Virus record (IMG/VR): IMGVR_UViG_3300020177_001482
Coordinates: 1 to 64,000 of that record
Direction: 5' to 3' (one strand)
Source of the DNA: a virus
DNA length: 64,000 nt
How positions within the stretch are numbered: position 1 is the stretch's first letter; each line of letters opens with the position of its first letter. Shown one piece after another: positions 12,834 through 54,588 of this stretch. The notes under the pieces were generated by a model, which was given only the letters and a program-made list of their open reading frames with translations, was not told where the DNA came from and did not search any database. Made by a program: the position numbers and the translations under genes.

Positions 12834-13297
12834 AGTTTAAACTAGAACTATACGCCACCATGTGGGACCGACCACCGCATGCGGATATCTTGGTTGGCGA
12901 CGTGAGTCATTTCAAGGGGGAAATCACCGGCACGGAAAATAATCCTGATATAATAGAGTTTGAGTCTGAGTTGGAGGAGAATAAAGACTATAGTCTGCTC
13001 ATCAATAGATCAGGAAAAAGTAATAAGCAAACCATAATAAATGAAAACGGCGACATATTGAAGGACCAACTATTACACATCAAGAGCATAGAAATAGACG
13101 AGATAGACCTTGGAGGATTAGTTTTTGAGGGTGTATACAAACCCGTATATCTAGAACCTTGGGCCACACAGCAACGTGAATCTGGCAATGAACTGCCAAA
13201 GACGTCAAAGAACGTTACAAGGATGGGGCACAACGGAGAATGGCGTTTAAATTTCACATCGCCTTTCTACATGTGGCTTTTGGAGAACCTTTACTAA
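12815..13297 (+). CDS. Hypothetical beta-rich protein
   Basis: 160 residues, predicted beta-sandwich. The N-terminal KFKLELYATMWDRPPHADI and the central IKSIEIDEIDLGGLVFEG resemble beta-domain proteins seen in T4-like marine phages, but I cannot name a family. Acidic, no signal. It ends at a strong late promoter. A carbohydrate-binding or structural role is possible but unproven. Confidence 0.65.
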   Translation: MATEKLKFKLELYATMWDRPPHADILVGDVSHFKGEITGTENNPDIIEFESELEENKDYSLLINRSGKSNKQTIINENGDILKDQLLHIKSIEIDEIDLGGLVFEGVYKPVYLEPWATQQRESGNELPKTSKNVTRMGHNGEWRLNFTSPFYMWLLENLY

Positions 13298-13303
13298 TAA
13301 ATA
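13296..13303 (+). promoter_or_regulatory. Late promoter core AATAAATA
   Basis: Starts inside the TAA stop of the preceding gene (13295-13297) and ends 7 bases before the ATG at 13311. No Shine-Dalgarno. Confidence 0.62.
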
Positions 13304-13310
13304 TGCTTGT

Positions 13311-13667
13311 ATGAGAGCATCACAATTCATTTCAGAGAACATAGACTCGGACGCGGTCAATGAGCTGGATACCTACATCATGAACAACGAGGACCTTTAT
13401 CGTAGACGTTTCATGCCCATCATATCAAACATCAGGAGAAAACTGGCCAAGAACGTGTATGATCACGACAAGGCACAGAAACTGTGGATGTACCTTGTGG
13501 ATGATGCCGCGAAAGAATACGTCAAAGAATTCGGATCAACACAGGATGATGTCAGCAACATGTTTCCAAAGGAGACCAGAGAACAGGTTGCGAGAGTTAT
13601 ATCAGACAGAGAACTAGAAAACATAAAACAAGGCGAATACGATGCACCTAAGGGAACTGTTTCTTAA
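13311..13667 (+). CDS. Candidate capsid-targeted protein (MRASQFISE N-terminus)
   Basis: 118 residues. The start MRASQFISEN closely resembles the T4 internal-protein targeting peptide (MKTYQEFIAE), which directs proteins into the prohead core and is then cut after Glu. The rest is helical and charged (RRRFMPIISNIRRKLAKNVYDHDKAQ), with no recognised enzyme domain. It is expressed from a late promoter 7 bases upstream. Predicted: a head-internal protein, processed after Glu9. The targeting claim is inference from sequence resemblance. Overlaps the next gene by 26 bases. Confidence 0.7.
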   Translation: MRASQFISENIDSDAVNELDTYIMNNEDLYRRRFMPIISNIRRKLAKNVYDHDKAQKLWMYLVDDAAKEYVKEFGSTQDDVSNMFPKETREQVARVISDRELENIKQGEYDAPKGTVS

Positions 13668-14823
13668 GGAGGACGATCGTTCAACTGCAGTCTTTGCCTT
13701 TGGTCGATTCAATCCTCCCACAATAGGACACGAGAAATTAATCAACAAAGTTCAGCAGGTCGCTGACAAGGTGAATGGCAAGGCCTACATATTCCTTTCA
13801 CACACAGACGGTACCGCAAAGGATCCCATAGATTTCACAACCAAACTATCATACCTTAGGCAACACTTCCAGTCAGACCCAAAGTTATCATTTGGTGACA
13901 TCAGGGCAAACACAATCATAAAAGTAATGAAAGTGCTTGAACAGGAAGGCAGGACCAAAGTAATAATGGTCGCAGGTGATGATAGGGTCATGCAATTTAA
14001 AAATCTACTGAACCAGTACAATGGTAAACCAACCAAGGCCGGTAACATAGAATACACCTTTGACAGCGTTGATGTTGTAAGTGCTGGACAGAGGGATCCA
14101 GATGCGGATGACGTCACTGGGGTGAGTGCATCCAAGGCCAGGGAACTTGCCATGAAGGGACAGGAACACGAATTCAGCAAGATCATCATGGGTGGCGACA
14201 AAGGTAAAGTGCTGTACAACAAGATACAGGACCAGTTTGGTAAGACGGTTGACGAGAACAACAAGAAGTTGTATAATGAAGATATGACAGATACTAAACC
14301 AATCGTATATCTTGACATGGACGGAGTACTGGCAGACTTCTTTGGTGGTGTTGAATTCCTCTATGGGGTTGAACACTGGAAACAACTGACCAATGACAAG
14401 ACCAAAGACCTTAAGAAAGAAGTCATAGACAGGATCACGGGCACGGACTTCTTCGCAGTGCTACCAAAATTTCCAACAGCAGACGCACTGATAGACATGG
14501 TGAAGAAATTTACAGGTGGCAAGTTCTCAATAAACACATCACCATTGAGGGGTGATCATGAGAATTCAGCCAAATACAAGAAAGTGTGGATCGCAAACAA
14601 CATAGAACAACCAGACGAGATAGTGGTCACAGGTAGAAAAGAAACTTACGCCAAGAACAAAGGAACAGGCACGCCAAACATCCTGATCGACGACAGGCCA
14701 ATCAACATACAGAAGTGGCAGGCCGCTGGTGGATACGGAATACTATACCAAGCAAACAGGGATTCATTAACCAAAGTACAGAAAGGACTGGAGGACTATG
14801 CCAAAGTTCAGCGGGATCAATAG
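13642..14823 (+). CDS. Nucleotidyltransferase-HAD phosphatase fusion
   Basis: 393 residues in two parts. Residues about 15-200 form an NMN adenylyltransferase/cytidylyltransferase-like domain with GRFNPPTIGH (residues 21-30, the HxGH-type site) and GVSASKARE (160-168, the second nucleotide site). Residues about 218-385 form a HAD-type 5'(3')-nucleotidase domain with nucleophile Asp225 in YLDMDGVLADF and ILIDDRPIN near the C-terminus. The first ten residues (MHLRELFLKE) resemble the capsid-targeting peptides of neighbouring genes. The pair of activities could act on NAD or nucleotide pools; the substrate is unknown. The ATG lies 26 bases inside the previous gene. Confidence 0.85.
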   Translation: MHLRELFLKEDDRSTAVFAFGRFNPPTIGHEKLINKVQQVADKVNGKAYIFLSHTDGTAKDPIDFTTKLSYLRQHFQSDPKLSFGDIRANTIIKVMKVLEQEGRTKVIMVAGDDRVMQFKNLLNQYNGKPTKAGNIEYTFDSVDVVSAGQRDPDADDVTGVSASKARELAMKGQEHEFSKIIMGGDKGKVLYNKIQDQFGKTVDENNKKLYNEDMTDTKPIVYLDMDGVLADFFGGVEFLYGVEHWKQLTNDKTKDLKKEVIDRITGTDFFAVLPKFPTADALIDMVKKFTGGKFSINTSPLRGDHENSAKYKKVWIANNIEQPDEIVVTGRKETYAKNKGTGTPNILIDDRPINIQKWQAAGGYGILYQANRDSLTKVQKGLEDYAKVQRDQ

Positions 14824-14977
14824 ACCATACAAAGCAGGCGAGATAGAGAAAACGCCACAAGAACTACAGAGAGAACTTGACGAGAAGATGAAGAAATTCC
14901 TGGCCAAGGGTGGCAAGGTGGAAAAAGTCAAGGCACACAAGCCAACCAAACAACAGTTGAAAGACTGGACAATCTAG
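14798..14977 (+). CDS. Small basic hypothetical protein
   Basis: 59 residues: MPKFSGINRPYKAG, then a helical Lys/Glu-rich stretch ending KQQLKDWTI. The ATG is 26 bases inside the previous gene and the TAG overlaps the GTG start of the next (TAGTG). It fills the otherwise empty 150 bases between two genes, and coupling at both ends supports it being real. No function is known to me. Confidence 0.6.
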   Translation: MPKFSGINRPYKAGEIEKTPQELQRELDEKMKKFLAKGGKVEKVKAHKPTKQQLKDWTI

Positions 14978-15186
14978 TGGACGAACTTGAGCGTATAAAG
15001 AAGTTAGCGGGCATAGACAAACCGCAAAAAGACCAATCAATGGGCGAGAACCTATCCTACGTTGGCACACAGAAAGCACAATACCAAAAAAAACACAACA
15101 TCAAGCCGGGCACAGAAGAGTGGTTCAAACTATGGTTCGCACAGCCTAGACTGACTGGTGAAAACCCAATGCCCAAAAACAAATAA
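14977..15186 (+). CDS. Small hypothetical protein (ERIKKLAGI N-terminus), GTG start
   Basis: 69 residues starting at GTG 14977, which overlaps the previous TAG. The N-terminus MDELERIKKLAGI is an amphipathic helix; a related LADIAKLAGI occurs in the acidic protein at 21376. The C-terminal GTEEWFKLWFAQPRLTGENP looks like a short folded module. Its stop codon is part of the late promoter for sodC. Function unknown. Confidence 0.6.
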   Translation: MDELERIKKLAGIDKPQKDQSMGENLSYVGTQKAQYQKKHNIKPGTEEWFKLWFAQPRLTGENPMPKNK

Positions 15187-15189
15187 ATA
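15182..15189 (+). promoter_or_regulatory. Late promoter core AATAAATA for sodC
   Basis: Overlaps the upstream TAA (15184-15186) and ends 8 bases before the sodC ATG at 15198. Confidence 0.62.
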
Positions 15190-15204
15190 CTCGCACAATG
15201 CGAG
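15190..15204 (+). promoter_or_regulatory. Hairpin enclosing the sodC start codon
   Basis: CTCGCA-CAA-TGCGAG: a perfect 6-base stem with a 3-base loop that contains the A of the ATG (15198-15200). In RNA it would fold over the start codon if transcribed. Whether the promoter's start site includes the left arm is uncertain, so regulation is inference. Confidence 0.35.
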
Positions 15205-15752
15205 CACAAGAATTCACAGAATCCAGTTGTAAGAGAACGAGAGCGAAAGAGTGTAATTGTGGCAAGGTAAGTGCAATTACCGAAGCACAGGAGACCACAG
15301 TTGCCCAATGCATATTGGAGCATTCTGACACCGTTAAGGGCTCTATCCTGCTCATACAAGCACCAGGAACGGCAACACTAGTAAAAGGTACCATAACAGG
15401 ACTGACGCCGGGAGAACACGGTTTCCACATACACGAGTTTGGAGACATGAGTGATGGCTGTAAATCAATGGGTGGACACTACAACCCAGACGGAATTGAT
15501 CACGGTGACATCAACGAAGGACACGTTGGAGATCTTGGTAATATAACAGCGGATGAAACAGGCACTGCCAAGTTCACAATTGAAGCCAAGAGAGTAGACT
15601 TACTCGGTGACAGGTCAGTGATAGGCAGAGGATTCGTTGTACACTCAGACAAGGATGATCTAGGCAAGGGCGGCGATGAAGAAAGTTTGAAAACAGGTAA
15701 CGCAGGTGATAGACTTGCCTGTGGTGTGATCACACTTAGGGCGGCAGAATGA
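15198..15752 (+). CDS. sodC: Cu/Zn superoxide dismutase with capsid-targeting-like N-terminus
   Basis: 184 residues. The SOD domain (about 33-184) keeps the full active site: GFHIHEFGD gives Cu ligands His77 and His79; GGHYNPD gives bridging His94; His102, His109 and Asp112 fit the Zn ligands; His149 is the last Cu ligand. GNAGDRLACGVI carries the substrate-guiding Arg172 and the disulfide Cys175 (partner Cys88). It converts superoxide to peroxide and oxygen. Instead of a secretion signal, the 32-residue extension starts MRAQEFTESS, like T4 capsid-targeting peptides, with a second cut-like site near AITEAQ. Late promoter upstream; its end overlaps the flavoprotein gene by four bases. Confidence 0.93.
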   Translation: MRAQEFTESSCKRTRAKECNCGKVSAITEAQETTVAQCILEHSDTVKGSILLIQAPGTATLVKGTITGLTPGEHGFHIHEFGDMSDGCKSMGGHYNPDGIDHGDINEGHVGDLGNITADETGTAKFTIEAKRVDLLGDRSVIGRGFVVHSDKDDLGKGGDEESLKTGNAGDRLACGVITLRAAE

Positions 15753-16357
15753 AGTTCTTAATATTCAATGGCAGTTTGAAACCAGACTCAGCGTCAAACA
15801 CATTCTCAGTGTGTAAGATGGCACAGTTGGCATTTGAGAAACTAGGACACGAATGTGAGATTGTCACATTGAGAGATTTAGATTACGAAGGATCAACAGC
15901 AGACGTCAACGACGAACTGAAGCCACACATAATGAAAATGTTTGACGTGGACGGAGTCATATTCGCAACACCTATTTGGTGGGGTCAACACAGTTGCCAC
16001 ACTCAGGCAATGCTTGAAAGACTAGACGTAATATACAGTTGGGCCAAAGACAACAAACATCAACCTTTCTATAACAAGGTGTTTGGTACTCTAGTTTCAG
16101 GTGGCGGAGATGGATTCCAACACATACATGGAGTGCTGTATTCAGCGGCTTCGAATTTTGGTTTCACCATACCACCACAGTGCAACATAGAATCAAAAGC
16201 ACAGGGCATAGACGAGATCACACAGGACGATGACACGGTAGAACAGGTCAAGAACTGCACGATAAACATGACAACATGGGCGAGGATCCTCAAAGATGGG
16301 AATCCCACAAAAGATGCCAGACACGGATCTGTGGACGTCAACGAACACAAAGAATAA
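15749..16357 (+). CDS. NAD(P)H-dependent FMN reductase-like flavoprotein
   Basis: 202 residues with a flavodoxin-like fold. The phosphate-binding loop is FNGSLKPDSASNT (residues 5-17); the strand-loop FATPIWWGQHS near 72-82 and GTLVSGGGDG near 112-121 match FMN-contact loops of the NADPH-dependent FMN reductase family. Probable role: two-electron reduction of flavin, quinone or related acceptors. Coupled to sodC by an ATGA overlap, so the two are made together and may form a redox pair. Unlike SodC it lacks a targeting-like N-terminus. Confidence 0.78.
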   Translation: MKFLIFNGSLKPDSASNTFSVCKMAQLAFEKLGHECEIVTLRDLDYEGSTADVNDELKPHIMKMFDVDGVIFATPIWWGQHSCHTQAMLERLDVIYSWAKDNKHQPFYNKVFGTLVSGGGDGFQHIHGVLYSAASNFGFTIPPQCNIESKAQGIDEITQDDDTVEQVKNCTINMTTWARILKDGNPTKDARHGSVDVNEHKE

Positions 16358-16360
16358 ATA
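16353..16360 (+). promoter_or_regulatory. Late promoter core AATAAATA
   Basis: Overlaps the upstream TAA (16355-16357) and ends 5 bases before the ATG at 16366. No Shine-Dalgarno. Confidence 0.6.
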
Positions 16361-16365
16361 TTGAC

Positions 16366-16551
16366 ATGATAAAAGAAGCACTCATAAAAAAACTCGAAGG
16401 TGATGTTGCGGTAGCAGAGACTGATCTTAGAACTTTCCTGGCACAACCAATCGGTGTTGCAGAACACATCGATTATGTAGTGACAGCGGAGAAGAAATTA
16501 GAAGCACTGGCACACGCCAAAGACAAATTGTCATCATTGCGAGATCTGTAA
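16366..16551 (+). CDS. Small helical hypothetical protein
   Basis: 61 residues, predicted all-helical (IKKLEGDVAVAETDLRTFL, then KKLEALAHAKDKLSSL). The ATG at 16366 is chosen because it follows the late promoter directly; the open frame extends upstream into the flavoprotein gene, which is an overlap shadow. No domain recognised. Likely a late protein. Confidence 0.6.
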   Translation: MIKEALIKKLEGDVAVAETDLRTFLAQPIGVAEHIDYVVTAEKKLEALAHAKDKLSSLRDL

Positions 16552-16552
16552 C

Positions 16553-16783
16553 ATGAAGATCCGGGAGGTACTGGCAACAAAATATGTACATCCTGATGTT
16601 GATAAGATTCTGAAAAAATACCAACGACAGGCCAAGGGCAGGTCAAGGATGGGATACCATTCGATGATGGCGTATCCATACAGGGTGGAAGGGTGGTCAG
16701 GCAAATACAAGAAATCCATAAACTGCGGCAACCCCAAGGGATTCTCACAGAAGGCTCACTGTGCGGGCAGGAAGAAGAAATGA
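16553..16783 (+). CDS. Basic Cys-containing protein with targeting-like N-terminus
   Basis: 76 residues, very basic (ends GRKKK). It begins MKIREVLATK, one of the recurring N-terminal motifs of this region. The body has RSRMGYHSMMAYPYRVEGW and NCGNPKGFSQKAHCAG, a two-Cys basic module. Such small basic proteins could bind packaged DNA, like T4 internal proteins; this is inference. The TGA overlaps the next ATG (ATGA), giving coupled translation. Confidence 0.6.
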   Translation: MKIREVLATKYVHPDVDKILKKYQRQAKGRSRMGYHSMMAYPYRVEGWSGKYKKSINCGNPKGFSQKAHCAGRKKK

Positions 16784-17298
16784 AGATACGAGAATTCATA
16801 ATCATGCCACACACGGCAGACACAATGGGTCTCATACACAGACCCGGAACAGGTCCAAACAACAGGTTCGATTTCAAGAACAAAGGCAACAACAAGGCCA
16901 ACGAGAAAGCACCTCCGGGCAGGGAGAAACAGGTCAAAGCACTTAAGGGCAAAGTGGATAATCCATACGCAGTTGCTTGGGCAAGTTACAACAAGAGCAA
17001 AAATGAAGAAGCCGCAGGCGTTGGAATAGTGACGAAACAGAATGCAACCAAGGATGTGCCCGTAGGTGGTGAATACATGAACGTGAAGAAACTAAAGTTA
17101 GATTGGAAGGAGTTCCGTGAGAACTTCGCAGACGGCAAGCGGAAGGGCAAGAGCAGGCCAGGACGTGTGAAACGTGCAGGGGCCAGTTGCAAAGGCTCAG
17201 TGACAAGTTTAAGAGCAAAAGCCAAGAAGTACGGCGGTGAGAAAGCAAAGATGTATCACTGGTGTGCCAACATGAAGAGCGGACGTCAGAAAAAATAA
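16780..17298 (+). CDS. Basic protein with MKIREF N-terminus
   Basis: 172 residues, strongly basic. The ATG at 16780 is selected over an upstream in-frame Met because it overlaps the previous stop as ATGA and restores the shared N-terminal motif (MKIREFIIMP). Two conserved-looking patches are NPYAVAWASYNKSKNEE (residues about 62-78), often seen in T4-like marine phage proteins, and a C-terminal Arg/Lys-rich stretch with two Cys (GASCKGSVTSLR, MYHWCANMKSG). Predicted nucleic-acid binding and head-internal location; function unproven. Confidence 0.65.
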   Translation: MKIREFIIMPHTADTMGLIHRPGTGPNNRFDFKNKGNNKANEKAPPGREKQVKALKGKVDNPYAVAWASYNKSKNEEAAGVGIVTKQNATKDVPVGGEYMNVKKLKLDWKEFRENFADGKRKGKSRPGRVKRAGASCKGSVTSLRAKAKKYGGEKAKMYHWCANMKSGRQKK

Positions 17299-17311
17299 TA
17301 ATTACTTCTGT

Positions 17312-18181
17312 ATGAAGTACACCTTAATCTTAGGTATCGAATATAAGAAATTCAAGAGACCTGCCACAATAACTGTACACATCGGCAACACCTTCGTTGA
17401 TACCTTTGCATTGGAAAGGGATTATCCACTTAAAAAGACAACGGTCTCCTTTTCAGACACAGAAAGAAATCGGTTATACAAACCAAGTAAATCATTTGAC
17501 TCGCAGTGGATACTGGATGAGCTTTCGGATCGGGAGATCGATCTCCCAACATTTTACAAAATATATGAAATAGATGAGAATTATATTGAAGGCTCGATCA
17601 ACATCAAGGTTGAAAACTCAAACAGTGATTACACAAACGGTTTCATGAAAAACAGTTCGTGGATGAAATTTACACTCGTGAGTCTTGTACCTAGTATGTT
17701 ATTGCAAGATAATGGCACAAAATTTATTGATGTAACTGCTAGGTTGAAGCGAGTCGAAGCGAAGTATTGCAATCGTCTTGGCTTGAAAAAGACCCCGGCG
17801 TGGCCAAAAAATTCTCCGGAGCGAATACAAGAAAAAGTTTTATCTCTGGATAAAATAGACCAGGACCATTTCACATATCCCAAAAAACACAAATGGACAT
17901 ATCATGATTCTCGCCACTATTGGCCATTTGCAGGATTGTTCCTGGTACGACGAGAAAACGAAAAACACGAAAGAGATGCAGTCAGAGATTCTCGATGGCG
18001 TATTGGTGGCGACTTTACTGCGGAATTCCCTATAAGGCAAAAACACAGAACCAGATATATTGGATCCTGGGCAAGGCGAGAAGTTGGATTAGTATATCTC
18101 GCAAATTGGTATAATTTACCCGTTGCAGTTAAATTCCTAATAAATATCTGCGATGAAGATCAACGAAGTCATAACACATAA
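17312..18181 (+). CDS. Hypothetical beta-rich protein
   Basis: 289 residues. Predicted beta-sandwich at the N-terminus (TITVHIGNTFVDTFAL) and an Arg/His/Trp-rich C-terminal half (HYWPFAGLFLVRRENE). Not recognised. Base composition is more AT-rich than its neighbours. Its end overlaps the next gene by 29 bases and contains that gene's late promoter. The N-terminal style recalls the product at 12815, but I cannot show homology by eye. Confidence 0.6.
   Translation: MKYTLILGIEYKKFKRPATITVHIGNTFVDTFALERDYPLKKTTVSFSDTERNRLYKPSKSFDSQWILDELSDREIDLPTFYKIYEIDENYIEGSINIKVENSNSDYTNGFMKNSSWMKFTLVSLVPSMLLQDNGTKFIDVTARLKRVEAKYCNRLGLKKTPAWPKNSPERIQEKVLSLDKIDQDHFTYPKKHKWTYHDSRHYWPFAGLFLVRRENEKHERDAVRDSRWRIGGDFTAEFPIRQKHRTRYIGSWARREVGLVYLANWYNLPVAVKFLINICDEDQRSHNT
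18139..18146 (+). promoter_or_regulatory. Late promoter core AATAAATA inside an upstream gene
   Basis: Lies within the coding end of the 17312 gene and ends 6 bases before the ATG at 18153. Confidence 0.6.
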
Positions 18182-18425
18182 GGTGCAAGAGCAGGCTACA
18201 GCAGGTGCCACTAGTGCGGGTAATATAGCCACAGTTATAAGTCCACACATAGCGATAGGTAAAGACAGGTTCACGAAAGCATACACAGGATCACCGGGAA
18301 GGTCAGGCACAAGGGCACCGAGATTGCCCAAGGTAGTACAACCCAAAAACCCAGACGGGACAGCCAAAGGCGCACACGCAATGCCTGGAGTGAACCTCAT
18401 GGGTGGACCATTGGTAAAGAGATAA
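18153..18425 (+). CDS. Hypothetical protein with MKINEVI N-terminus
   Basis: 90 residues. N-terminus MKINEVITHK belongs to the recurring targeting-like set. The rest is Gly/Ala/Pro-rich and basic (GSPGRSGTRAPRLPKVVQP), probably disordered. It shares its last base with the next ATG (TAATG). A head-internal or core role is inferred from the N-terminus and late promoter. Confidence 0.6.
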   Translation: MKINEVITHKVQEQATAGATSAGNIATVISPHIAIGKDRFTKAYTGSPGRSGTRAPRLPKVVQPKNPDGTAKGAHAMPGVNLMGGPLVKR

Positions 18426-18601
18426 TGGACGATGTACTGCTACTAAATGAAGAATGGATCATCAAGTGTACAAACTGTGGTTGTGACAGCCATTGTGGCA
18501 AGACTTGCACAAGGAAAGAACAGCATTATCCCACAGACGGCTACATGGAGTACCCAATAGAGGTATGTAAGCAGTGCAGATGTGAGGCCTGCGCCGCATA
18601 A
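18425..18601 (+). CDS. 58-residue Cys-rich protein, zinc-knuckle-like
   Basis: 58 residues with nine Cys in two clusters: KCTNCGCDSHCGKTC (residues 15-29) and CKQCRCEAC (48-56). The spacing suggests one or two bound metal ions. The ATG shares a base with the previous stop (TAATG), and the stop is part of the next late promoter, so the reading frame fits exactly into this interval. No family recognised. Possible roles are metal binding or protein-nucleic acid contact. Confidence 0.6.
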   Translation: MDDVLLLNEEWIIKCTNCGCDSHCGKTCTRKEQHYPTDGYMEYPIEVCKQCRCEACAA

Positions 18602-18604
18602 ATA
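18597..18604 (+). promoter_or_regulatory. Late promoter core CATAAATA
   Basis: Contains the upstream TAA (18599-18601) and ends 5 bases before the ATG at 18610. Confidence 0.62.
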
Positions 18605-18609
18605 TTGAT

Positions 18610-19035
18610 ATGAGAGCACAAGAATTCATCAGAGAAGGCGCTGAAATGATAGCGTACCACAAACATCCAAAAGACAACAACCTATGGACGTTCCCAAAGG
18701 CATACCAGGATGACGAGAGTGTGGAGAGTCCATACATGAGCAACGCCAGTATGAGACAGTTCCTAGACGCACTAGGATACAATCCTGACTTCGAGGACCA
18801 GAGTCCTGTGCCAGCGAAAGAATTCATAGCGAGGACCACACAATGGTTACAGAAGAACATAGGCAAGAGATCACCAGAAGAACCGACAACCATCGATCAG
18901 AATCCAGGTGGTGCCACAATGATAGGTGGTGGAAAGCCAGAGGGTTACATGAATCAGATGGTCAAAGCACACAACGAGATAGCAAGGAAAGTAATAGCGA
19001 AATATCCAGAAGTGACACACTTCGGATTCAATTAA
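18610..19035 (+). CDS. Candidate capsid-targeted protein (MRAQEFIREG)
   Basis: 141 residues. MRAQEFIREG is the closest match in the window to the T4 capsid-targeting peptide (MKTYQEFIAE): the QEFI core and the following Glu are identical, one residue is missing before it. Predicted cut after Glu9. The rest has no recognised domain; it includes a helical segment (ASMRQFLDALGY) and a Gly-rich stretch (NPGGATMIGGGKPEG). Late promoter 5 bases upstream. One base separates its stop from the next ATG. Confidence 0.65.
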   Translation: MRAQEFIREGAEMIAYHKHPKDNNLWTFPKAYQDDESVESPYMSNASMRQFLDALGYNPDFEDQSPVPAKEFIARTTQWLQKNIGKRSPEEPTTIDQNPGGATMIGGGKPEGYMNQMVKAHNEIARKVIAKYPEVTHFGFN

Positions 19036-19036
19036 C

Positions 19037-20215
19037 ATGAAGTTCAACGAATTATCAGACATGATGCAGAAGCCGGAACCAAAGCCGGACACGTACGAAG
19101 CGGGCATGGCACTGAACCAATTGTTGAAGATCGGCACACACGCGATCAAGATACACAACATGATAGATGACGATGCCGAGATGGAGGCATGGGTGGCCAA
19201 GAAGATCGACCTGGCATCAAACTATGTGAAGAGTGTACACGGTTACACGGCGGGTTCAAAGGCAGGCACCTACGATGACGATGGCATGTCGGAAATGAAA
19301 AAGATGCCCAAAGGCACAGGCACCATGCAGGGCGTGAAGGAAGACGCAGGCGAGGGACACATGAGCAAAAGCCAGTTGTACCAGACTGCGAAAATGGCAA
19401 TAGAATTACTGGACATGATCAACAAAGGTGATGACCTTGAGGGTTGGGTACAGACCAAACTTAATTTAGCGGCAGACTACCTACAAGCGGTATACCACTA
19501 CGAGGACTACCAGAAACTAAATCCATACAGGGAAGAATTAGACAGTTCTTTAATGCAAAGGCACGCAGGAATCATACAGAAACATCTTGATGAGATACTT
19601 GAAAGAAAATGTAGGGCAGAGGATGTTGACACCAAACCAGGCATGATGAGAATATTAAAGAAAAGAGTAAATGAAGTAGAAAAAGAAATTGCAAAAGAAA
19701 ACAGGAAAGAAACCAACGAAGCCACTATCAAACCTTACGTTTCGATGTACAGAGGTGAGGATGGCAAGATGGTGTATGACGTGTTGGACAAACACGAAAA
19801 GTCAGCATTCAAGACATCAGACGAGAGGGTGGCGAGAGCATACCTCTCAAAGAACTACAACAAGTTGAGAGAAGCGGCACTGGACGAGGGCATCCAAGAG
19901 TGGGGCAAGAGACTGGCCATGGCCGGAATCATCGTGGCAGGCTTGGCTGGGATCAACAGCATAAACAACGCAATAGACAATTCCGTACCAGCCGTCAAGG
20001 CCATGAACACAGCACTGGACATGGCACAGGATTCAGGCAACACAGAATTGGCGAAAATGATCGAAAAAGACCTATCAGACGCCAAAGTGAGATTGAGCAC
20101 AGGCAAGGATCTAGGCTCAGTGGCTGATCTACAGGACAAATACGCCAAGTTCATGAAGACAGAGGGACTGGCATACGAGTCAAAACTACAAGTGTACCTA
20201 TCTAAAAAACTGTAA
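19037..20215 (+). CDS. Probable head-internal protein with duplicated helical module
   Basis: 392 residues, helical. Two related copies of a roughly 45-residue module occur at about 27-70 and 114-156: IDDDAEMEAWVAKKIDLASNY and KGDDLEGWVQTKLNLAADYL share the D-x-E-x-W-V-x-x-K-x-x-L-A-x-x-Y pattern. A hydrophobic stretch (about 294-312, LAMAGIIVAGLAGINSINN) could be a membrane or buried helix. Starts MKFNEL, a weaker member of the N-terminal motif family. Likely a structural or ejected virion protein, from module type and location; no enzyme motif is visible. Confidence 0.65.
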   Translation: MKFNELSDMMQKPEPKPDTYEAGMALNQLLKIGTHAIKIHNMIDDDAEMEAWVAKKIDLASNYVKSVHGYTAGSKAGTYDDDGMSEMKKMPKGTGTMQGVKEDAGEGHMSKSQLYQTAKMAIELLDMINKGDDLEGWVQTKLNLAADYLQAVYHYEDYQKLNPYREELDSSLMQRHAGIIQKHLDEILERKCRAEDVDTKPGMMRILKKRVNEVEKEIAKENRKETNEATIKPYVSMYRGEDGKMVYDVLDKHEKSAFKTSDERVARAYLSKNYNKLREAALDEGIQEWGKRLAMAGIIVAGLAGINSINNAIDNSVPAVKAMNTALDMAQDSGNTELAKMIEKDLSDAKVRLSTGKDLGSVADLQDKYAKFMKTEGLAYESKLQVYLSKKL

Positions 20216-20216
20216 A

Positions 20217-20224
20217 GTTAAATA
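20217..20224 (+). promoter_or_regulatory. Late promoter core GTTAAATA
   Basis: Ends 8 bases before the ATG at 20233. It matches TATAAATA at 6 of 8 positions and keeps the TAAATA core. Confidence 0.5.
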
Positions 20225-20232
20225 CTATAATC

Positions 20233-21333
20233 ATGCAGAACACTACTTTTAGAAGTCGGCAAGATTTCTACAGGCAAATGGAGTTGACCAGCATAAACGA
20301 TGACCCAATAGGTGTTCTATCAAACATATATGATGATGAGTATCCTCACCCGGTATTTGATCCAAAGAAAATTTGTTTCAGGAGATACAGGAGATACAGG
20401 AACTATAATCATCTCAAATACAACGACCGTAAGTCTATAAAAGAAAATGTTCGAACTGTATTTGAAGACTTCGAAATGTATTTGCCAGGGGTGGGTGATG
20501 AATGGCATGGTCTACTTGCAACGTTTGACCCTGAGGTAAACCCGTTGAGAGAACATGACTTTGTTATTACTTCTTGCGTCACTAAAAACGATCACCTGTG
20601 GCCGGTACCTTATGTATATAACAACTATCATTTTGTTAAGACACATCTGATAAATCGTGGTAAAAAAATAGCAAGACCAACAGACAGGCCGTTCTTTGCT
20701 GATGTCTTGTTAGGTACTAATAAACCCCACAGAGAATTATTTTTCCAGCTCATGCAACAAAATAATATGTTAGAAACAAATATTATTAATTTTTTTGGCA
20801 CATACAAAAGCAAATTTTTAAATTCAGTCAACGATCCTCAGCAGTTGGTAATTGATCGTATACAAACAGAGAACAACAATAGCACAACGAAATTATTAAA
20901 CGGTCATTTCACAAGTCAACACATCAGCGAGCACATAATGGAAAACAGTTGGTACAGCGTGGTAGCCGAGACAATTTTCAAAAATGACTGCTTCTTCGTC
21001 ACGGAGAAGACTGCCAAACCAATGATGGCGGGCAGGCCTTTCATTATACTTGGAGGCAAGCATTATCTAAAAAACCTGCGTGGCCTAGGTTTCAAAACAT
21101 TTGACCCCGTAATTGATGAAAGTTATGACAACATAGACGGGTTACAGGAACGTGTAAAAAGAGCATTTGCTAGTTTCCAATCCCTGATCACCCAGGATCC
21201 TGTCAAAGTCTACAGCAAGTTGAAGGATGTGATCGAACACAACCAGAGAATCATGTATGATAGGAAAAAATTAACACAGAGGGCAACCAGATTCCTAGAC
21301 AGTTTACACACCAAATATGCGTATACCCCTTAA
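20233..21333 (+). CDS. Probable glycosyltransferase (GT-B-like, fucosyltransferase-like C-terminus)
   Basis: 366 residues. The C-terminal third has the pattern of nucleotide-sugar binding in GT10-like and related phage glycosyltransferases: YSVVAETIFKNDCFFVTEKT (residues about 239-258), KPMMAGRPFIILGG and LRGLGFKTFD. The N-terminal half is AT-rich and unfamiliar. Likely adds a sugar to a surface glycan, virion protein or DNA; the acceptor is unknown. Follows a late promoter. Base composition is more AT-rich than the flanking head-internal genes, suggesting independent acquisition. Confidence 0.65.
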   Translation: MQNTTFRSRQDFYRQMELTSINDDPIGVLSNIYDDEYPHPVFDPKKICFRRYRRYRNYNHLKYNDRKSIKENVRTVFEDFEMYLPGVGDEWHGLLATFDPEVNPLREHDFVITSCVTKNDHLWPVPYVYNNYHFVKTHLINRGKKIARPTDRPFFADVLLGTNKPHRELFFQLMQQNNMLETNIINFFGTYKSKFLNSVNDPQQLVIDRIQTENNNSTTKLLNGHFTSQHISEHIMENSWYSVVAETIFKNDCFFVTEKTAKPMMAGRPFIILGGKHYLKNLRGLGFKTFDPVIDESYDNIDGLQERVKRAFASFQSLITQDPVKVYSKLKDVIEHNQRIMYDRKKLTQRATRFLDSLHTKYAYTP

Positions 21334-21361
21334 TCAAAGCATTAAATAAAACTGTAACAAA

Positions 21362-21369
21362 TATAAATA
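21362..21369 (+). promoter_or_regulatory. Perfect T4 late promoter core TATAAATA
   Basis: Exact match to the T4 late consensus. Ends 6 bases before the ATG at 21376, with no Shine-Dalgarno between. Confidence 0.75.
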
Positions 21370-21375
21370 ACTCAT

Positions 21376-22227
21376 ATGAGCACAGACACAAGTTTCAGAG
21401 ACCTAGTAGCACGCCTAAACGCCATGAACAACGTGACCCCAGAAGAGGAAAGGGCTCAACTAATGGAAGCGGCGGGCAAGGCTCCCAAGGTTTTAGACGA
21501 CAAGGAAGTCACATTGGCTGACATAGCCAAACTAGCAGGAATCAAAGAATACGTTGAACCTGTAAAACATTCAAAAAAAGCGGAAGAACTAGTCGAATCA
21601 ATCACTAAAGAACCAAAAGCAGAATCATTTATAACAAAAGCGATTGCAGAATCAGACGCAGATGACTCTATAGCAACTTCAATCAAGAAGGAAGTTAATG
21701 AGGAAGTAAATAGATTAGACAAGATAGCAGAATTAGAAGCACAGTTGGCAGAACTGAAGACGGAACAAAAAGAAGAACAAACCTATGACTCAAAATCATT
21801 CAGAGAAGTCATCACAAAGGATATCGCGGAGTACATCAAAGGCGCAGAAGATACTGCTCTCGTGGAACTTTACAACACGATATCAGACAATGAAGCAGTT
21901 TACAACGAGGAATCATCAAACATTCTCATTAAGACTCCAGAAACTACTGAGATCATAGCAGACGCCGAGAAGGCGGAAGCACCAGCAGAAGAAGAACAAG
22001 TGGACGAGAAGGTTGTTGACGGTGTGCAGACGGACAGGAACACATCAGAGCCACATGCCAAAGAAAAAGAAGAAGAAGATGAAGCAGAGGAAGAAGCGGA
22101 CGACAAAGAAGATGACGGTGAGGTTCCAATGCTAGACAAAGACTTCGACGAAGGCGAAGAAGTAGAACTTGACATTCCAGCGGAAGACAAGTTCACAAAC
22201 GACCTAGACCCAGCAGACAAAAAATAA
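21376..22227 (+). CDS. Highly acidic coiled-coil protein, possible prohead core/scaffold
   Basis: 283 residues, very Glu/Asp-rich, with a coiled coil near 110-130 (LDKIAELEAQLAELKTEQK) and a nearly all-acidic C-terminal third (about 205-283). Contains LADIAKLAGI near 48-57. Acidic coiled-coil proteins behind a perfect late promoter, among head-internal candidates, suggest a prohead core component. Several Glu-rich sites could be protease targets. Alternatively it is a packaged internal protein. No family is recognised. Confidence 0.6.
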   Translation: MSTDTSFRDLVARLNAMNNVTPEEERAQLMEAAGKAPKVLDDKEVTLADIAKLAGIKEYVEPVKHSKKAEELVESITKEPKAESFITKAIAESDADDSIATSIKKEVNEEVNRLDKIAELEAQLAELKTEQKEEQTYDSKSFREVITKDIAEYIKGAEDTALVELYNTISDNEAVYNEESSNILIKTPETTEIIADAEKAEAPAEEEQVDEKVVDGVQTDRNTSEPHAKEKEEEDEAEEEADDKEDDGEVPMLDKDFDEGEEVELDIPAEDKFTNDLDPADKK

Positions 22228-22235
22228 TCCAAAAA

Positions 22236-22243
22236 ATTAAATA
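22236..22243 (+). promoter_or_regulatory. Late promoter core ATTAAATA
   Basis: Ends 5 bases before the ATG at 22249. The following bases (AGTGTATG) are identical to those after the promoter at 630. Confidence 0.55.
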
Positions 22244-22248
22244 AGTGT

Positions 22249-22890
22249 ATGCGATTACACTTGACAGACAACAGATTCAACACGAATCCGTACTGGACTG
22301 AGCGTGTGAAGAGCATATTCGCTTGCCCACCAAAAGAAGTTGTTAGTATGTTTGACCAGAACGGATATGATCTCACCAAACTAGAACAACTATATGCTGT
22401 GGCCAATGGTGCAACTACCATAAAACACAGGAATTCAGAACATATTACCTTGAGAAAAGATTGGTTCACCGCAGACGAGACAGAATATGGCCCACACATC
22501 AACCACGCCTACATGTTTGAACGTAAGGGTTACTCCGGTGATGCATTAAACCAGTTGGAGAGTTGGGCCGCATACAGACCGCATTTCTACAAACTTACCG
22601 CCATGAGGCCTAAATGGGGACTGGACTTCAGCATAGACTACTGTGACAGTGAGGGCAACGTGTTCGAACTCTTACACTGGGAGTACGACGGATTCGACTA
22701 CAACGAAGTGGCAGACAAGAAAGAGAAGATGGACGAGTTCCTGGTGAATCAGGACTGGGACGAACGGGCACAGACCATGCTGGAACGTAAAAATGAGTGG
22801 CATAAACTGGGCTTTTTTGAGCAGAGCGAGTGGAAAACAGAATTCTTTGGCATAGAAAAAGAACGTTTCAAGATGGTGTTGTGGAAATAA
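22249..22890 (+). CDS. Hypothetical protein
   Basis: 213 residues, soluble, rich in Trp and aromatic residues (LHWEYDGFDYNEV, FKMVLWK). I do not recognise a domain. Starts MRLHLTDNRF with a late promoter 5 bases upstream. The stop codon forms part of the next late promoter. A late cytoplasmic or virion function is likely. Confidence 0.65.
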   Translation: MRLHLTDNRFNTNPYWTERVKSIFACPPKEVVSMFDQNGYDLTKLEQLYAVANGATTIKHRNSEHITLRKDWFTADETEYGPHINHAYMFERKGYSGDALNQLESWAAYRPHFYKLTAMRPKWGLDFSIDYCDSEGNVFELLHWEYDGFDYNEVADKKEKMDEFLVNQDWDERAQTMLERKNEWHKLGFFEQSEWKTEFFGIEKERFKMVLWK

Positions 22891-22893
22891 ATA
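22886..22893 (+). promoter_or_regulatory. Late promoter core AATAAATA
   Basis: Overlaps the upstream TAA (22888-22890) and ends 6 bases before the ATG at 22900. Confidence 0.62.
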
Positions 22894-22899
22894 CTACAA

Positions 22900-23691
22900 A
22901 TGAGCTCAATACCCTACAACTACGGATCATACATAGACGCCAAAGTGGCAATGACTGACACGGGACACGTGTCCGCTGGCAAGCAGATACAGTCACCAGC
23001 CAGTGCAGGTAGCAGGGGTTTGGCAAAGACAACACAATTCACAAACGACAGGACACAGATGCAGATGGGCAACTCACCGATAGCAGAATCAATGATAGAG
23101 ATCAGAAATATCATGAACAGAATTGATGGCATTAACGTGCCCACAAACGAAATGAACGAATTAGCAGATGATGAAAAGATGGAATTCACGAAAATACTAT
23201 TAGACATCTCAGCAATTAAAGACAGGATCGAGAGACTTTCAGTGGATGATGACGCTAAGAAATCAGCGATACAATCACTGACCAACGCAGAAGAGGCTTT
23301 AGTGGCATTAGACGAACACGAATACACACCAATGCCAGAGGGTGACGAGTTCGACATAGAAGAGGACGAGGACTTCGAAGAAGTGTTAGGTCCATTGGGT
23401 TTCCCAGAAGACGAGACGGAACTGTTTGACGCAGAGTACCAAGGCAGGAAAGTTCCACTCAACAAACCCATGCGTGGTGATGTTAAGAAATTCAAAGTGT
23501 ATGTCAAAGATCCAAAGACAGGAAATGTCAAGAAAGTCAACTTCGGACACGGTGGTACAAGTGCGAAGAGACCAACCATGAGGATCAGGAAATCAAATCC
23601 AAAAGCGAGAAAATCATTCAGGGCGAGACACAACTGTGCCAACCCAGGACCAAAGACCAAGGCGAGATATTGGTCATGCAGGAAGTGGTAA
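22900..23691 (+). CDS. Hypothetical protein with conserved Arg/Cys C-terminal module
   Basis: 263 residues in three zones: a Ser/Gly-rich N-terminus (1-55), a helical and acidic middle (about 65-165, DEFDIEEDEDFEEV), and a basic C-terminal module (about 185-263) with GRKVPLNKPMRGDVKKFKVY, then SFRARHNCANPG and RYWSCRKW. That last module recurs at the C-terminus of proteins from T4-like marine phages. Its two Cys and basic surface suggest metal or nucleic-acid binding. No enzyme motif is seen. Late promoter upstream; one base separates it from the next gene. Confidence 0.65.
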   Translation: MSSIPYNYGSYIDAKVAMTDTGHVSAGKQIQSPASAGSRGLAKTTQFTNDRTQMQMGNSPIAESMIEIRNIMNRIDGINVPTNEMNELADDEKMEFTKILLDISAIKDRIERLSVDDDAKKSAIQSLTNAEEALVALDEHEYTPMPEGDEFDIEEDEDFEEVLGPLGFPEDETELFDAEYQGRKVPLNKPMRGDVKKFKVYVKDPKTGNVKKVNFGHGGTSAKRPTMRIRKSNPKARKSFRARHNCANPGPKTKARYWSCRKW

Positions 23692-23692
23692 C

Positions 23693-23878
23693 ATGCAGAT
23701 CCGTGAAGTGGTTGGTATCACAGAGGAAGAGTTCGAGCAATTAGCAGAGAAGAAAGACGCCTGCTATCACAAAGTCAAATCAAGATACAAAGTATGGCCC
23801 AGTGCCTATGCCAGTGGTGCACTAGTGCAGTGTCGTAAAAAGGGTGCGGCCAACTGGGGCAACAGCAAGAAGAAATAA
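23693..23878 (+). CDS. Small basic protein with WPSAYASGALV motif
   Basis: 61 residues. Begins MQIREVVGITEEE, a member of the targeting-like N-terminal set with cut-like Glu positions. The body CYHKVKSRYKVWPSAYASGA followed by CRKKGAANWG is a short two-Cys module widespread in phages and large algal viruses (I believe a DUF5872-like family, not verified). Basic tail. The start at 23693 is chosen because it opens the shared motif; an upstream in-frame Met lies inside the previous gene. Shares its last base with the next ATG. Confidence 0.6.
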   Translation: MQIREVVGITEEEFEQLAEKKDACYHKVKSRYKVWPSAYASGALVQCRKKGAANWGNSKKK

Positions 23879-24276
23879 TGAGAGCCAGTGAGATAATCAC
23901 GGAGAAGTGTTGGAAAGGCTACACCAAGAAGGGCATGAAGACCATGTTCGGCAAACGTGTGCCCAACTGCGTCAAGAAAGAGGACGTGGACTTCTGTGTC
24001 AACTGTGGTGAATTGGTTTTCGCGGAATCATTGAACGAGGACCTCAAGAAATGGTTCAAGGACAAATGGGTACGGTTTGGTCCTGATGGCAAGATCAGGG
24101 GTGACTGTGCAAGAGGTTCCAGCAAAGAAGGTAAGCCTAAATGCCTACCAAGATCGAAAGCACACGCACTGGGCAAGAAAGGCAGGAAGTCCGCGGCCGC
24201 AAGGAAACGTAGGCAGGATCCCAACAAGAACAGACGTGGTAAAGCCAAGAACGTGGCCACCAAGAAGAAAAAATAA
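23878..24276 (+). CDS. Basic protein with MRASEIITE N-terminus (DUF6321-like)
   Basis: 132 residues, very basic. MRASEIITEK matches the targeting-like motif with a predicted cut after Glu9. It carries a CxxC in DFCVNCGELVF and a second half (KKWFKDKWVRFGPDGK, GKPKCLPRSKAHALGKKG) typical of a phage family I believe to be DUF6321. The Lys/Arg-rich end (KNRRGKAKNVATKKKK) suggests DNA binding. With its two small neighbours it forms a group of basic, probably packaged proteins. It is the last gene before the replication region. Confidence 0.65.
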   Translation: MRASEIITEKCWKGYTKKGMKTMFGKRVPNCVKKEDVDFCVNCGELVFAESLNEDLKKWFKDKWVRFGPDGKIRGDCARGSSKEGKPKCLPRSKAHALGKKGRKSAAARKRRQDPNKNRRGKAKNVATKKKK

Positions 24277-24872: not shown

Positions 24873-27536
24873 ATGAGTTACATAGATGCATTATACAAGA
24901 AGGACGAGGACAAGATATACGTCGTAGAACGTGATCCCAAGAAGGGCAGGATATTCACGGAGTATGATGCCAGGTACGTGTTCTACTATGAGGACGCCAG
25001 GGGCAAACACAGATCAATGACCGGTGCACCATTACAGCGGGTGCAGTGTGCCACACACAAAGAATTCATAAAAGAACAGAGGATAAGATCCAACAAGCAA
25101 CTGTACGAGAATGATATCAATCCTGTGTTCAGGTGTTTGGAAGAGAACTACTTGGGCAAGGAGACGCCCAAACTAAACGTGATGTTTTTCGATATTGAAG
25201 TTGACTTCGATCCCGATCGAGGTTATTCAACAACAGATGATCCGTTCATGCCCATAACTGCCATAAGTTGTTACATGAGCTGGACGGACCAACTGGTCAC
25301 ATTCGCAGTACCTCCCAAAACTATCAGCATGGACGATGCCAAAGAACTCACAAAAAGATTTGACAACACAATGCTTTTTGAAAAAGAGAAAGATATGTTG
25401 GACGCATTCCTAGAACTAGTGCAGGACGCAGACATACTGTCGGGTTGGAACAGTGAGGGATATGACATTCCATACACAGTGGGTAGGATACAGAAAGTGT
25501 TGAGTTCAGACGACACAAGACGTCTTTGTTTTTGGGGTGAAAAGCCAAGAAAGAGAGTGTTCGAGAAGTATGGTAGGGAACAGTTGAGTTTTGACCTAGT
25601 GGGACGTGTACACTTGGACTTGTTGGAACTATACAGGAAATACACATACGAGGAAAGACACAGTTTCAGACTAGACGCAATTGGTGAACACGAGTTGGAT
25701 GAGAGAAAAACTGTCTACGAGGGCTCGCTCGATAACTTGTACAAGAACGACTTTGGATTGTTCATAGAATACAACAGACAGGATACTGCACTGTTGGCCA
25801 AACTGGAGAAGAAATTGAAGTTCATAGAACTGGCCAATGAGATAGCACACCAAAACACTGTACTACTACAGACAACGATGGGTGCGGTCGCGGTCACAGA
25901 ACAGGCAATCGTAAATGAAACACACAGACGTGGAATGCAGGTACCGGCCAGGAAGTACAAGAAAGACGGTGAAGAGAACCAACCGGCGGCAGGAGCACAC
26001 GTGGCCACCCCACAAAAGGGAATACACGACTGGATAGGATCTGTTGACATAAACAGTCTGTATCCAAGTGTTATTAGAGCATTGAACATGGGTCCTGAAA
26101 CCATAGTTGGACAGATTAGGCCAGTGATTACTTCAGCAGAGATCAACAGGGCCAAACACGCCAAGAAATCATTCGCGGCGGCATGGGACAGCCAGTTTGG
26201 TAGTTGGGAATACCAAGCGGTCATGAACCAAGAGAAGGGCACAGAGATAATTGTTGATTGGGAAGACAAGACCAGTGTGCGTATGAGTGCGGCACAACTG
26301 TACGAGATAATATTCGATGGCAATAACAAATGGATGCTAAGTGCTAATGGCACAATATTCACATACGAGCACGAAGCAATCATTCCAGGTCTGTTGAAGC
26401 GTTGGTACGCGGAGAGACAGGAAATGCAAAAAAAGATGCGTGAGTGTGGAGACAACGAGATCGAAAGAGAATATTGGGACAAGAGACAACTTGTAAAGAA
26501 AATTAATCTAAACAGTCTGTATGGTGCGATCCTAAATCCAGGCTGTAGATTCTTTGACATAAGAATTGGACAGAGTGTTACACTCACAGGCAGGTGTATC
26601 ACCAAACACATGGCCAGCAAAGTCAACGAGATCGTGGCGGGCAAGTATGACCACAAGGGCGAGAGTGTTGTGTATGGAGACACAGACTCCGTTTACTTCT
26701 CAGCATACAAGACATTACAGAAAGAGATCAATGAAGGTATCATACCGTGGACCAAAGACTCCGTCGTGGCACTGTACGACAGGATTGCAGACGAGGTCAA
26801 CGGATCTTTCAAATCATTCATGACTAAAGGCTTCCATTGTCCTAGCACGAGGGGTGAAGTTATAGCGGCGGGCAGAGAACTTGTTGCATCAAAAGGTCTG
26901 TTCATCACAAAGAAAAGGTATGCCGTGCTTTACTATGACAAGGAAGGTAAACGTGCAGATGTTGACGGCAAGGATGGCAAGATGAAGGCCATGGGACTGG
27001 ATCTCAAACGTTCAGACACACCTGTTTTCGTGCAGGATTTCCTGAGTGATCTCCTATACATGGTACTGACAGGGAAAACAGAAGAGCAAGTGCTAGAAAA
27101 AATTAGTGAATTCAGAGCAGAGTTTAAATCTAGGCCAGGGTGGGAGAAAGGTTCTCCCAAGAGGGCAAACAACATGACCAAGTACACTGCGGCCGAGGAG
27201 AAGGCCGGTAGAGCAAACATGCCGGGACACGTGAGGGCCAGCATGAATTGGAACAGGTGCAGGGAAATGTATGGCGACAAGTACAGTATGCCAATCACGG
27301 ATGGTGCCAAAGTGATAGTGTGTAAACTCAAAAACAATCCGTTAGGCTACACGAGTATCGCATATCCGGTGGACGAGATGCGTATTCCTGAATGGTTCAA
27401 GGAACTGCCGTTCGACAGTGATGCCATGGAAGCAACGATACTTGATCAAAAGATAGACAACCTCATAGGAGTCTTGGGTTGGGACGTGCAATCAACTGAG
27501 ACCACGAACACATTCAACAAACTGTTTGAATTCTAA
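24873..27536 (+). CDS. 43: Family B DNA polymerase (T4 gp43-like)
   Basis: 887 residues (T4 gp43 is 898). The 3'-5' exonuclease domain has FFDIEVDF (Asp107, Glu109), WNSEGYDIPY and YNRQDTALL; the polymerase domain has motif A DINSLYPSVIR (Asp392), motif B KKINLNSLYGA and motif C VYGDTDSVYF (Asp603, Asp605). All catalytic acids are present. The ATG at 24873 is chosen because it lies just after the membrane-protein stop and begins MSYIDALYKKD as in other T4-type polymerases; the open frame extends 15 codons upstream. Works with the sliding clamp encoded about 0.8 kb downstream. Confidence 0.97.
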   Translation: MSYIDALYKKDEDKIYVVERDPKKGRIFTEYDARYVFYYEDARGKHRSMTGAPLQRVQCATHKEFIKEQRIRSNKQLYENDINPVFRCLEENYLGKETPKLNVMFFDIEVDFDPDRGYSTTDDPFMPITAISCYMSWTDQLVTFAVPPKTISMDDAKELTKRFDNTMLFEKEKDMLDAFLELVQDADILSGWNSEGYDIPYTVGRIQKVLSSDDTRRLCFWGEKPRKRVFEKYGREQLSFDLVGRVHLDLLELYRKYTYEERHSFRLDAIGEHELDERKTVYEGSLDNLYKNDFGLFIEYNRQDTALLAKLEKKLKFIELANEIAHQNTVLLQTTMGAVAVTEQAIVNETHRRGMQVPARKYKKDGEENQPAAGAHVATPQKGIHDWIGSVDINSLYPSVIRALNMGPETIVGQIRPVITSAEINRAKHAKKSFAAAWDSQFGSWEYQAVMNQEKGTEIIVDWEDKTSVRMSAAQLYEIIFDGNNKWMLSANGTIFTYEHEAIIPGLLKRWYAERQEMQKKMRECGDNEIEREYWDKRQLVKKINLNSLYGAILNPGCRFFDIRIGQSVTLTGRCITKHMASKVNEIVAGKYDHKGESVVYGDTDSVYFSAYKTLQKEINEGIIPWTKDSVVALYDRIADEVNGSFKSFMTKGFHCPSTRGEVIAAGRELVASKGLFITKKRYAVLYYDKEGKRADVDGKDGKMKAMGLDLKRSDTPVFVQDFLSDLLYMVLTGKTEEQVLEKISEFRAEFKSRPGWEKGSPKRANNMTKYTAAEEKAGRANMPGHVRASMNWNRCREMYGDKYSMPITDGAKVIVCKLKNNPLGYTSIAYPVDEMRIPEWFKELPFDSDAMEATILDQKIDNLIGVLGWDVQSTETTNTFNKLFEF

Positions 27537-54439: not shown

Positions 54440-54588
54440 CAGAATTCTTTCTTAACACCAACATGTGGATTCTCCACGCAACTGTTGGTTATTTCTTTTA
54501 TTGTCTCTTTGTTTAAATCTACGTCACAACTGGCACTGGGTTTGATCCCACAACCCACACACAACAATAGTATTATTAGATATTTCAT
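54439..54588 (-). CDS. 49-residue lipoprotein
   Basis: 49 residues. MKYLIILLLCVGCG is a short signal with a lipobox-like LCVGC (Cys13), followed by a small polar domain with two more Cys (SASCDVDLNKE, TNSCVENP). The ATG overlaps the carbamoyltransferase stop by four bases, and its stop shares a base with the DegT start. It fits exactly between the two genes and is probably real. Could be an outer-membrane or exclusion lipoprotein. Confidence 0.6.
   Translation of the reverse strand: MKYLIILLLCVGCGIKPSASCDVDLNKETIKEITNSCVENPHVGVKKEF

Follow-up and report, generated by a model that had tools for sequence, protein, structure and literature searches.

Ten proteins of an uncultured marine T4-like phage share a predicted capsid-targeting propeptide of the T4 type

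Why should ten proteins encoded in one short block of a phage genome, among them a Cu/Zn superoxide dismutase (SOD) and a predicted nucleotide enzyme, begin with variants of a single short peptide? The DNA in question derives from an uncultured marine T4-like phage and comprises bases 1–64,000 (the window) of the 88,897-base IMG/VR virus record IMGVR_UViG_3300020177_001482, which is probably a fragment of a larger genome and for which no cultured phage with DNA similarity was found. A preliminary description had located the ten N-termini at 13.3–24.3 kb, and each was confirmed to be a real ATG of an open frame with the coordinate reported. The shared N-terminus (consensus M-[RK]-[IAFL]-x-E-[FILV]-[IVLT]), hereafter the tag, is best understood as a T4-type capsid-targeting propeptide, a reading to which a probability of roughly 0.84 is assigned. 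Genes and their products are named below by the first base of the gene, and a slash within a sequence marks a cleavage site, predicted unless attributed to T4.

All ATGs followed by an open frame of 45 codons or more, on either strand of the whole record, were scanned with the pattern ^M[RKHQ]..[EQ][FILVM]. Of these 1,051 candidates 13 matched: the ten proteins already described, all within 13.3–24.3 kb, plus three starts without gene support (33885 +, 63507 − and 68360 −), the two lying in the window being internal ATGs of longer genes. Against this background (3/1,041) the chance of ten tags among the approximately 22 genes of the block is P ~2e-20, an optimistic value in that the pattern was derived from the same ten proteins, the independent check being provided by relatives. 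The block ends just 5' of the gene for a T4-type DNA polymerase, gp43 (24873–27536), the nearest cultured homologs of which, from Sinorhizobium phage Phosso and Agrobacterium phage Atu_ph07, are only ~50% identical. Neither gp43 nor the other genes outside the block carried the motif when the genome-wide scan envisaged in the preliminary description, which asked if it was equally common in non-virion proteins, was run.

Relatives were drawn from IMG/VR using as queries the 23878 protein (594 relatives, 80 loci kept), the SOD (49), the 18153 protein (25) and the major capsid protein (MCP; 599, 80 kept), and the block comparison comprised 157 related loci with 1,380 unique proteins. A slightly relaxed pattern identified 289 of these proteins as tagged, distributed over as many as 69 clusters of bodies (22 of these having two or more members), counts to which chance matches and split modular proteins make some contribution; the clustering employed a coverage rule, an earlier version without it having been discarded after chaining modules into one cluster. 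Position preferences among the relatives were K/R at 2, I/A/F/L at 3, E (82%) at 5 and I/V/F/L at 6. In the near-complete relative G001 (196.6 kb) 8/27 genes of the corresponding segment were tagged, as against 2/199 in the rest of the sequence, and one of these two outliers belongs to the head cluster; in a second relative, G002, the counts were 4/31 and 0/104, respectively. As in T4-type cargo, a short N-terminal peptide is thus common to proteins with unrelated bodies: the earlier statement that the remaining sequences are unrelated holds for the bodies generally, and fails for small modules common to several of them. M..FxxLVxRLNxM, found for example in 21376, was considered as a possible further N-terminal motif and set aside, most of its matches belonging to one protein family.

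The clear duplication and shuffling of these small modules across the block might suggest that the tags are functionless homologous remnants of one duplicated ancestral gene. This is very unlikely, given that the tags alter more than the bodies yet retain their pattern, that the bodies of the SOD and NT5C proteins belong to unrelated families, and that the Glu of each predicted cleavage site is invariant. An origin at the nucleotide level, with a translation-start or late-promoter context coding similar residues by chance, might be favoured by the presence of ATAAATA at a fixed spacing ahead of several tagged genes. In addition to the element listed in Table 1, copies at 15183, 18140 and 18598 lie ahead of 15198, 18153 and 18610, placing the element 12–15 nucleotides (nt) before four of the ten. 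However, codons differ at every tag position, which indicates constraint at the level of protein; TAAATA occurs within 30 nt of just 89/289 tagged genes and also precedes 182 untagged ones; and the tag is followed by [LI]xE sites, themselves a protein-level feature. Chance coding of this kind is accordingly considered exceedingly improbable.

The ATAAATA elements of the window resemble T4 late promoters. All lie on the + strand, 9/11 of them 12–15 nt before a start codon and the last at 22.9 kb; their number (11) does not exceed the chance expectation (9.0), only strand and spacing being unusual. Late-promoter-like TAAATA elements in the window were recorded at 631, 1101, 7974, 13297, 15183, 18140, 18598, 21363 and 22887, and across the lineage TAAATA stands 11–14 nt before the ATG in 278/2,333 genes, with a sharp peak. 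A Shine-Dalgarno-like motif accompanied 17/325 genes with TAAATA within 20 nt versus 739/2008 others, and late mRNAs of the lineage may, on such sequence patterns, be leaderless.

The T4 prohead protease gp21 cleaves after L/I-x-E, and ten residues are enough for targeting (PMC9026906). In five of the ten proteins (13311, 13642, 18610, 23693 and 23878) an [LI]xE site occupies residues 9–11; 15198 has FTE at 8 and ITE at 29, and 18153 has VQE at 13. The earlier proposal that cleavage follows a Glu at the tag therefore finds a fitting site in only six or seven of the ten. Across the 157 loci 66% of tagged proteins had [LIVMF]xE with its Glu at residues 7–13, compared with 17% of untagged ones, and ahead of tagged bodies the Glu of [LIM]-x-E sites stays constant as flanking residues change. 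The SOD is an example: its first 35 residues vary freely in 15 aligned orthologs save for Met1, a Cys-rich core and Glu29, the last being invariant (15/15) with I/L/M at −2 and variable neighbours. In the 18610 family E9-G10-A11 is invariant irrespective of whether the tag abuts the body (MRAQEFIRE/GA, MKINEVIQE/GA, MKVNEVLRE/GA) or ~100 residues intervene (LTDGEIQE/GA). Equivalent sites precede internal modules: [LIVMF]xE was found before the CWKGY module in 28/28 distinct contexts, cyanophage polyproteins included (SELFNE/DCWDGY, ETNLDE/KCWPGY), and an [LI]xE-type site before the NFADGK module in 12/13, as compared with 7.9% at random positions, the contexts of both modules being phylogenetically non-independent.

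One connection with the head is provided by the 18153 family, in which the tag is fused to a segment also found at the post-cleavage N-terminus of the MCP (gp23) of relatives: MKINEVIVRE/QATAGATSAGNIA corresponds to KYLSE/QATAGATSAGNVA in the MCP, and in longer alignment MKINEVIVRE/QATAGATSAGNIASV to ENTKKYLSE/QATAGATSAGNVATL, the MCP cleavage position having been assigned by alignment with T4 gp23 (FLTE/AEIGG), which loses 65 residues on cleavage (PMC9958956). Family member and MCP segment co-occur in single genomes (G001, G016 and G035), and agree closely within them, both reading E/QATAGAT in G001 and both E/SATAGATSAG in G035. A second connection is the gene order of the G001 head cluster, namely portal, an 80-residue tagged protein (MKLMEFFTYG), an acidic gp67-like protein, gp21, gp22 and gp23, where gp21 was identified by PF03420 (4e-27) and the other roles were assigned by order, size and sequence. 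A tagged head-cluster protein of ~80 residues is found again at more than ten MCP loci, where its tag varies (MKLNEFF, MLLREFL, MKLLEFF). Thirdly, T4 N-termini read from NC_000866 comprise MAKINELLRE/S for gp24, from which the protease removes the first 10 residues (PMC9958956), MKTYQEFIAE/A for IPII and IPIII, and MELITELFDE for Alt. The preliminary description had likened the tags to the peptides of T4 internal proteins and Alt; the gp24 propeptide is as close a T4 match as the IPIII or Alt peptide.

Docking at a structure other than the head, for example the tail or baseplate, might instead be the role of the tag, in keeping with the late-promoter-like sites that precede the block and with the position of homologs in cyanophage S-SCSM1 among other late genes. 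This alternative is nonetheless rated as very unlikely, since the head is indicated by the fusion of tag to MCP cleavage segment, by the resemblance to the gp24 propeptide, by the tagged head-cluster gene and by the conserved prohead-protease-type sites. The same observations, taken with the invariant Glu and the mass spectrometry (MS) of S-CREM2 virions described below, favour capsid targeting as originally suggested.

That the tag goes with presence in virions is supported, by analogy, by published proteomics of other T4-like phages. Cytidylyltransferase/NMNAT homologs of 13642 were detected by MS in virions of S-SCSM1, S-CREM2 and S-CBWM1 (PMC9602691, PMC10665884), and both N-termini inspected are of the T4 type (S-SCSM1 ORF91, MKSFLQFLKEA; S-CREM2 gp154, MKNFSSFLTEA). 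When the S-CREM2 genome was scanned with ^M[KRQ].[FYLI]..[FLIM].{1,3}E, four annotated genes matched, gp6 (S-adenosylmethionine hydrolase), gp13, gp136 and gp154 (cytidylyltransferase), and 4/4 are among the 52/219 proteins detected in virions (Table 3 of PMC10665884), a hypergeometric probability worked out by hand as ~0.003 for four or 0.013 for three, Q having been added to the pattern after gp136 was seen (3/3 without Q). The gp14 kinase (GTG start, VKRFDAFLTE) is also virion-detected, and modules of 23693 and 23878 are present in S-SCSM1 ORF29, annotated as 'virion protein'. The main text of PMC10665884 does not contain the terms targeting sequence, propeptide or internal protein. Use of S-SCSM1 as a test of the exact window pattern yielded chance matches only, the spacing of the cyanophage tags being different. 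S-CREM2 gp12 (L285 7704–10313 −), a virion-detected Cas9-like nuclease, has the targeting-peptide-like LRFASFMAE at residues 17–25, and its start may be misannotated. Virion-detected small proteins of both phages, S-CREM2 gp160 and S-SCSM1 ORF97 (L263 28343–29236, L259 43121–43306), contain GFTGAAAPEGPVAGYDP-like sequence as in the S-CREM2 MCP segment, a sharing that parallels the 18153 protein.

Several points, the late admission of Q among them, weigh against capsid targeting. In three of the ten proteins (16553, 16780 and 19037) no clear cleavage site adjoins the tag; no recognisable gp21 protease gene is present in the 88.9-kb record, which is attributed to the record being a fragment; and the window pattern, being shorter with E at 5, is not identical to that of IPIII, targeting by a tag of the window type being a prediction. 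The virion data come from cyanophages, none being from this phage or its near relatives, and report presence as opposed to N-termini (PMC10665884, PMC9602691); co-purification is possible according to the authors of that work, and S-SCSM1 ORF30 has a perfect tag (MKTFKQFMSE) with no virion-protein annotation.

Table 1. Coordinates of the tagged genes and associated predicted elements in the window (a slash marks the predicted cleavage site)
Feature	Position	Strand	Description	Support
ATAAATA	13297..13303	+	Late-promoter-like, 14 nt before the 13311 ATG	
Tagged protein 1	13311..13667	+	118 residues; MRASQFISE/N; helical bundle behind disordered tag	AlphaFold2, homologs
Tagged protein 2	13642..14823	+	393 residues; MHLRELFLKE/D; cytidylyltransferase/NMNAT-like and NT5C nucleotidase domains	PF01467 1e-4, PF06941 1e-5, PHROG 3041 8e-49
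Tagged protein 3	15198..15752	+	184 residues; MRAQEFTE; Cu/Zn SOD without signal peptide	PF00080 1.7e-44
Glu29 codon of SOD	15282..15284	+	Predicted prohead-protease site ITE/A between Cys-rich leader and SOD domain	
Tagged protein 4	16553..16783	+	76 residues; MKIREVLATKY; C-terminal basic Cys module SINCGNPKGFSQKAHCAGRKKK	
Tagged protein 5	16780..17298	+	172 residues; MKIREFIIMPH; C-terminal basic module after DWKEFRE/NFADGK	
Tagged protein 6	18153..18425	+	90 residues; MKINEVITHKVQE/QATAGATSAGNIA; tag plus segment in common with post-cleavage MCP	
Segment QATAGATSAGNIA	18192..18230	+	Common to 18153 protein and post-cleavage N-terminus of gp23 in relatives	
Tagged protein 7	18610..19035	+	141 residues; MRAQEFIRE/GA	E9-G10-A11 invariant
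Tagged protein 8	19037..20215	+	392 residues; MKFNELSDM; no clear adjacent cut site	
Tagged protein 9	23693..23878	+	61 residues; MQIREVVGITE/E; basic module DACYHKVKSRYKVWPSAYASGALVQCRKKGA	PHROG 727 3.5e-24
Tagged protein 10	23878..24276	+	132 residues; MRASEIITE/KCWKGY and second module after SLNE/DLKKWF	
Glu54 codon of protein 10	24037..24039	+	Predicted internal protease site between two modules	E54 invariant

For the majority of the ten, searches of Pfam and PHROGs gave no match to a family with a known function (Table 1). The AlphaFold2 model of 13311 gave a mean confidence score (pLDDT) of 43 for residues 1–10 and of 92–97 for blocks 21–110, a confident helical bundle; its homologs retain the tag in altered form, and a fold search gave no PDB match, with BFVD giving only uncharacterised viral proteins. 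The SODC domain of 15198 has conserved metal ligands, H77, H79, H94, H102, H109, D112, H149 and R172 being invariant across the 15 aligned sequences, and the best PDB matches of its profile were eukaryotic-type Cu/Zn SODs (2e-52). Close cultured homologs were found for none of the SOD, 16780 and 18153 families. Five of the proteins (16553, 16780, 18153, 23693 and 23878) are strongly basic, with isoelectric points of 9.6–10.8, as expected for DNA-associated internal proteins. Further tagged cargo in relatives includes a lone NT5C protein, P-loop proteins matching Zeta_toxin/AAA_33 and a DUF6267 protein.

Untagged neighbours include a flavodoxin-like protein (15749–16357, recognised by eye) that adjoins the SOD and in relatives (L066 9246–10004; L149 3611–4303) has C-terminal basic NFADGK or SINCSNP modules. 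Another (22900–23691) ends in a basic Cys module (phrog_7595), and the stretch EAEYQGRKVPLNKPMRGDVKKFKVYVKDPKTG at the start of its module region occurs in a tagged protein of relative L131 (6567). The tag block is also present on a 372-kb phage contig, L162, together with an MCP that is related (82% identical), which extends the system into jumbo phages. Elsewhere in the window, four successive long genes on the minus strand (57836–62942), in which Cys-rich PW motifs recur (radical-SAM/SPASM-like by eye), lie close to a carbamoyltransferase-like gene at 54585.

Packaging, docking, cleavage and delivery in this phage are steps that we infer. The tagged proteins would be made late and docked through the tag on the prohead scaffold, to be enclosed as the shell forms; a gp21 homolog would then cut after the Glu of [LIM]-x-E at the tag end, and often again between modules, freeing cargo in the head that would at infection be ejected together with the DNA. 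The predicted cargo includes the SOD and the NMNAT-like/NT5C enzyme, together with small modules rich in Lys and Cys and a mimic of the mature MCP N-terminus, with P-loop kinase-like proteins in relatives. A broader proposal, on which even odds are placed, is of a modular head-cargo system in which the N-terminal address can be exchanged, small basic Cys modules and enzymes are shuffled with prohead-protease sites separating them, and the head-maturation protease acts as a polyprotein processor in the capsid, releasing numerous small proteins and enzymes; the 18153 family, by virtue of its mature MCP N-arm sequence, may occupy N-arm sites of the shell, and an MKxFxxFLxE version of the system would explain the virion enzymes of cyanophages.

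Comparison with the capsid-targeting sequences (CTS) of T4 IPI, IPII, IPIII and Alt reveals the same arrangement of about ten N-terminal residues common to unrelated cargo, with a hydrophobic/acidic pattern (MKTYQEFIAE) and a Glu at the cut site. The pattern in this phage differs in being shorter, with Glu at 5, and in being carried by ten or more proteins encoded within a single 11-kb block; in relatives it extends to dozens of body types, with SOD and nucleotide enzymes among the cargo. The T4 gp24 propeptide (MAKINELLRE/S), cut by gp21 after Glu10, has nearly the same letters as MKINEVIVRE/Q, although gp24 is a shell protein whereas here the peptide is on internal-type cargo. The virion enzymes of S-CREM2 and S-SCSM1 are alike in their homologous cytidylyltransferase/NMNAT and basic modules, T4-style N-terminal tags and MS detection; they differ in having MKxFxxFLxE-type tags and some modules within one long polyprotein, and their authors drew no targeting-peptide link. 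The ejected head proteins of phiKZ and SPN3US likewise form a large head-internal set cut after Glu, but differ in protease motif (S/A-x-E in phiKZ) and propeptides and belong to an unrelated phage group (PMC9026906). Relative to the T4 CTS, the new features are scale, enzyme cargo, a modular polyprotein logic and mimicry of the MCP N-arm.

The non-structural proteins that marine T4-like phages carry into cells are known from few proteomes, in which enzymes are possibly contaminants. Prediction of head cargo by a short sequence rule makes candidates from hundreds of uncultured phages available for testing, and the tags themselves provide natural variants of the T4 targeting peptide. The rule also suggests that, within the first minutes of infection, phages may deliver an SOD, nucleotide and NAD-type enzymes, and basic modules associated with DNA.

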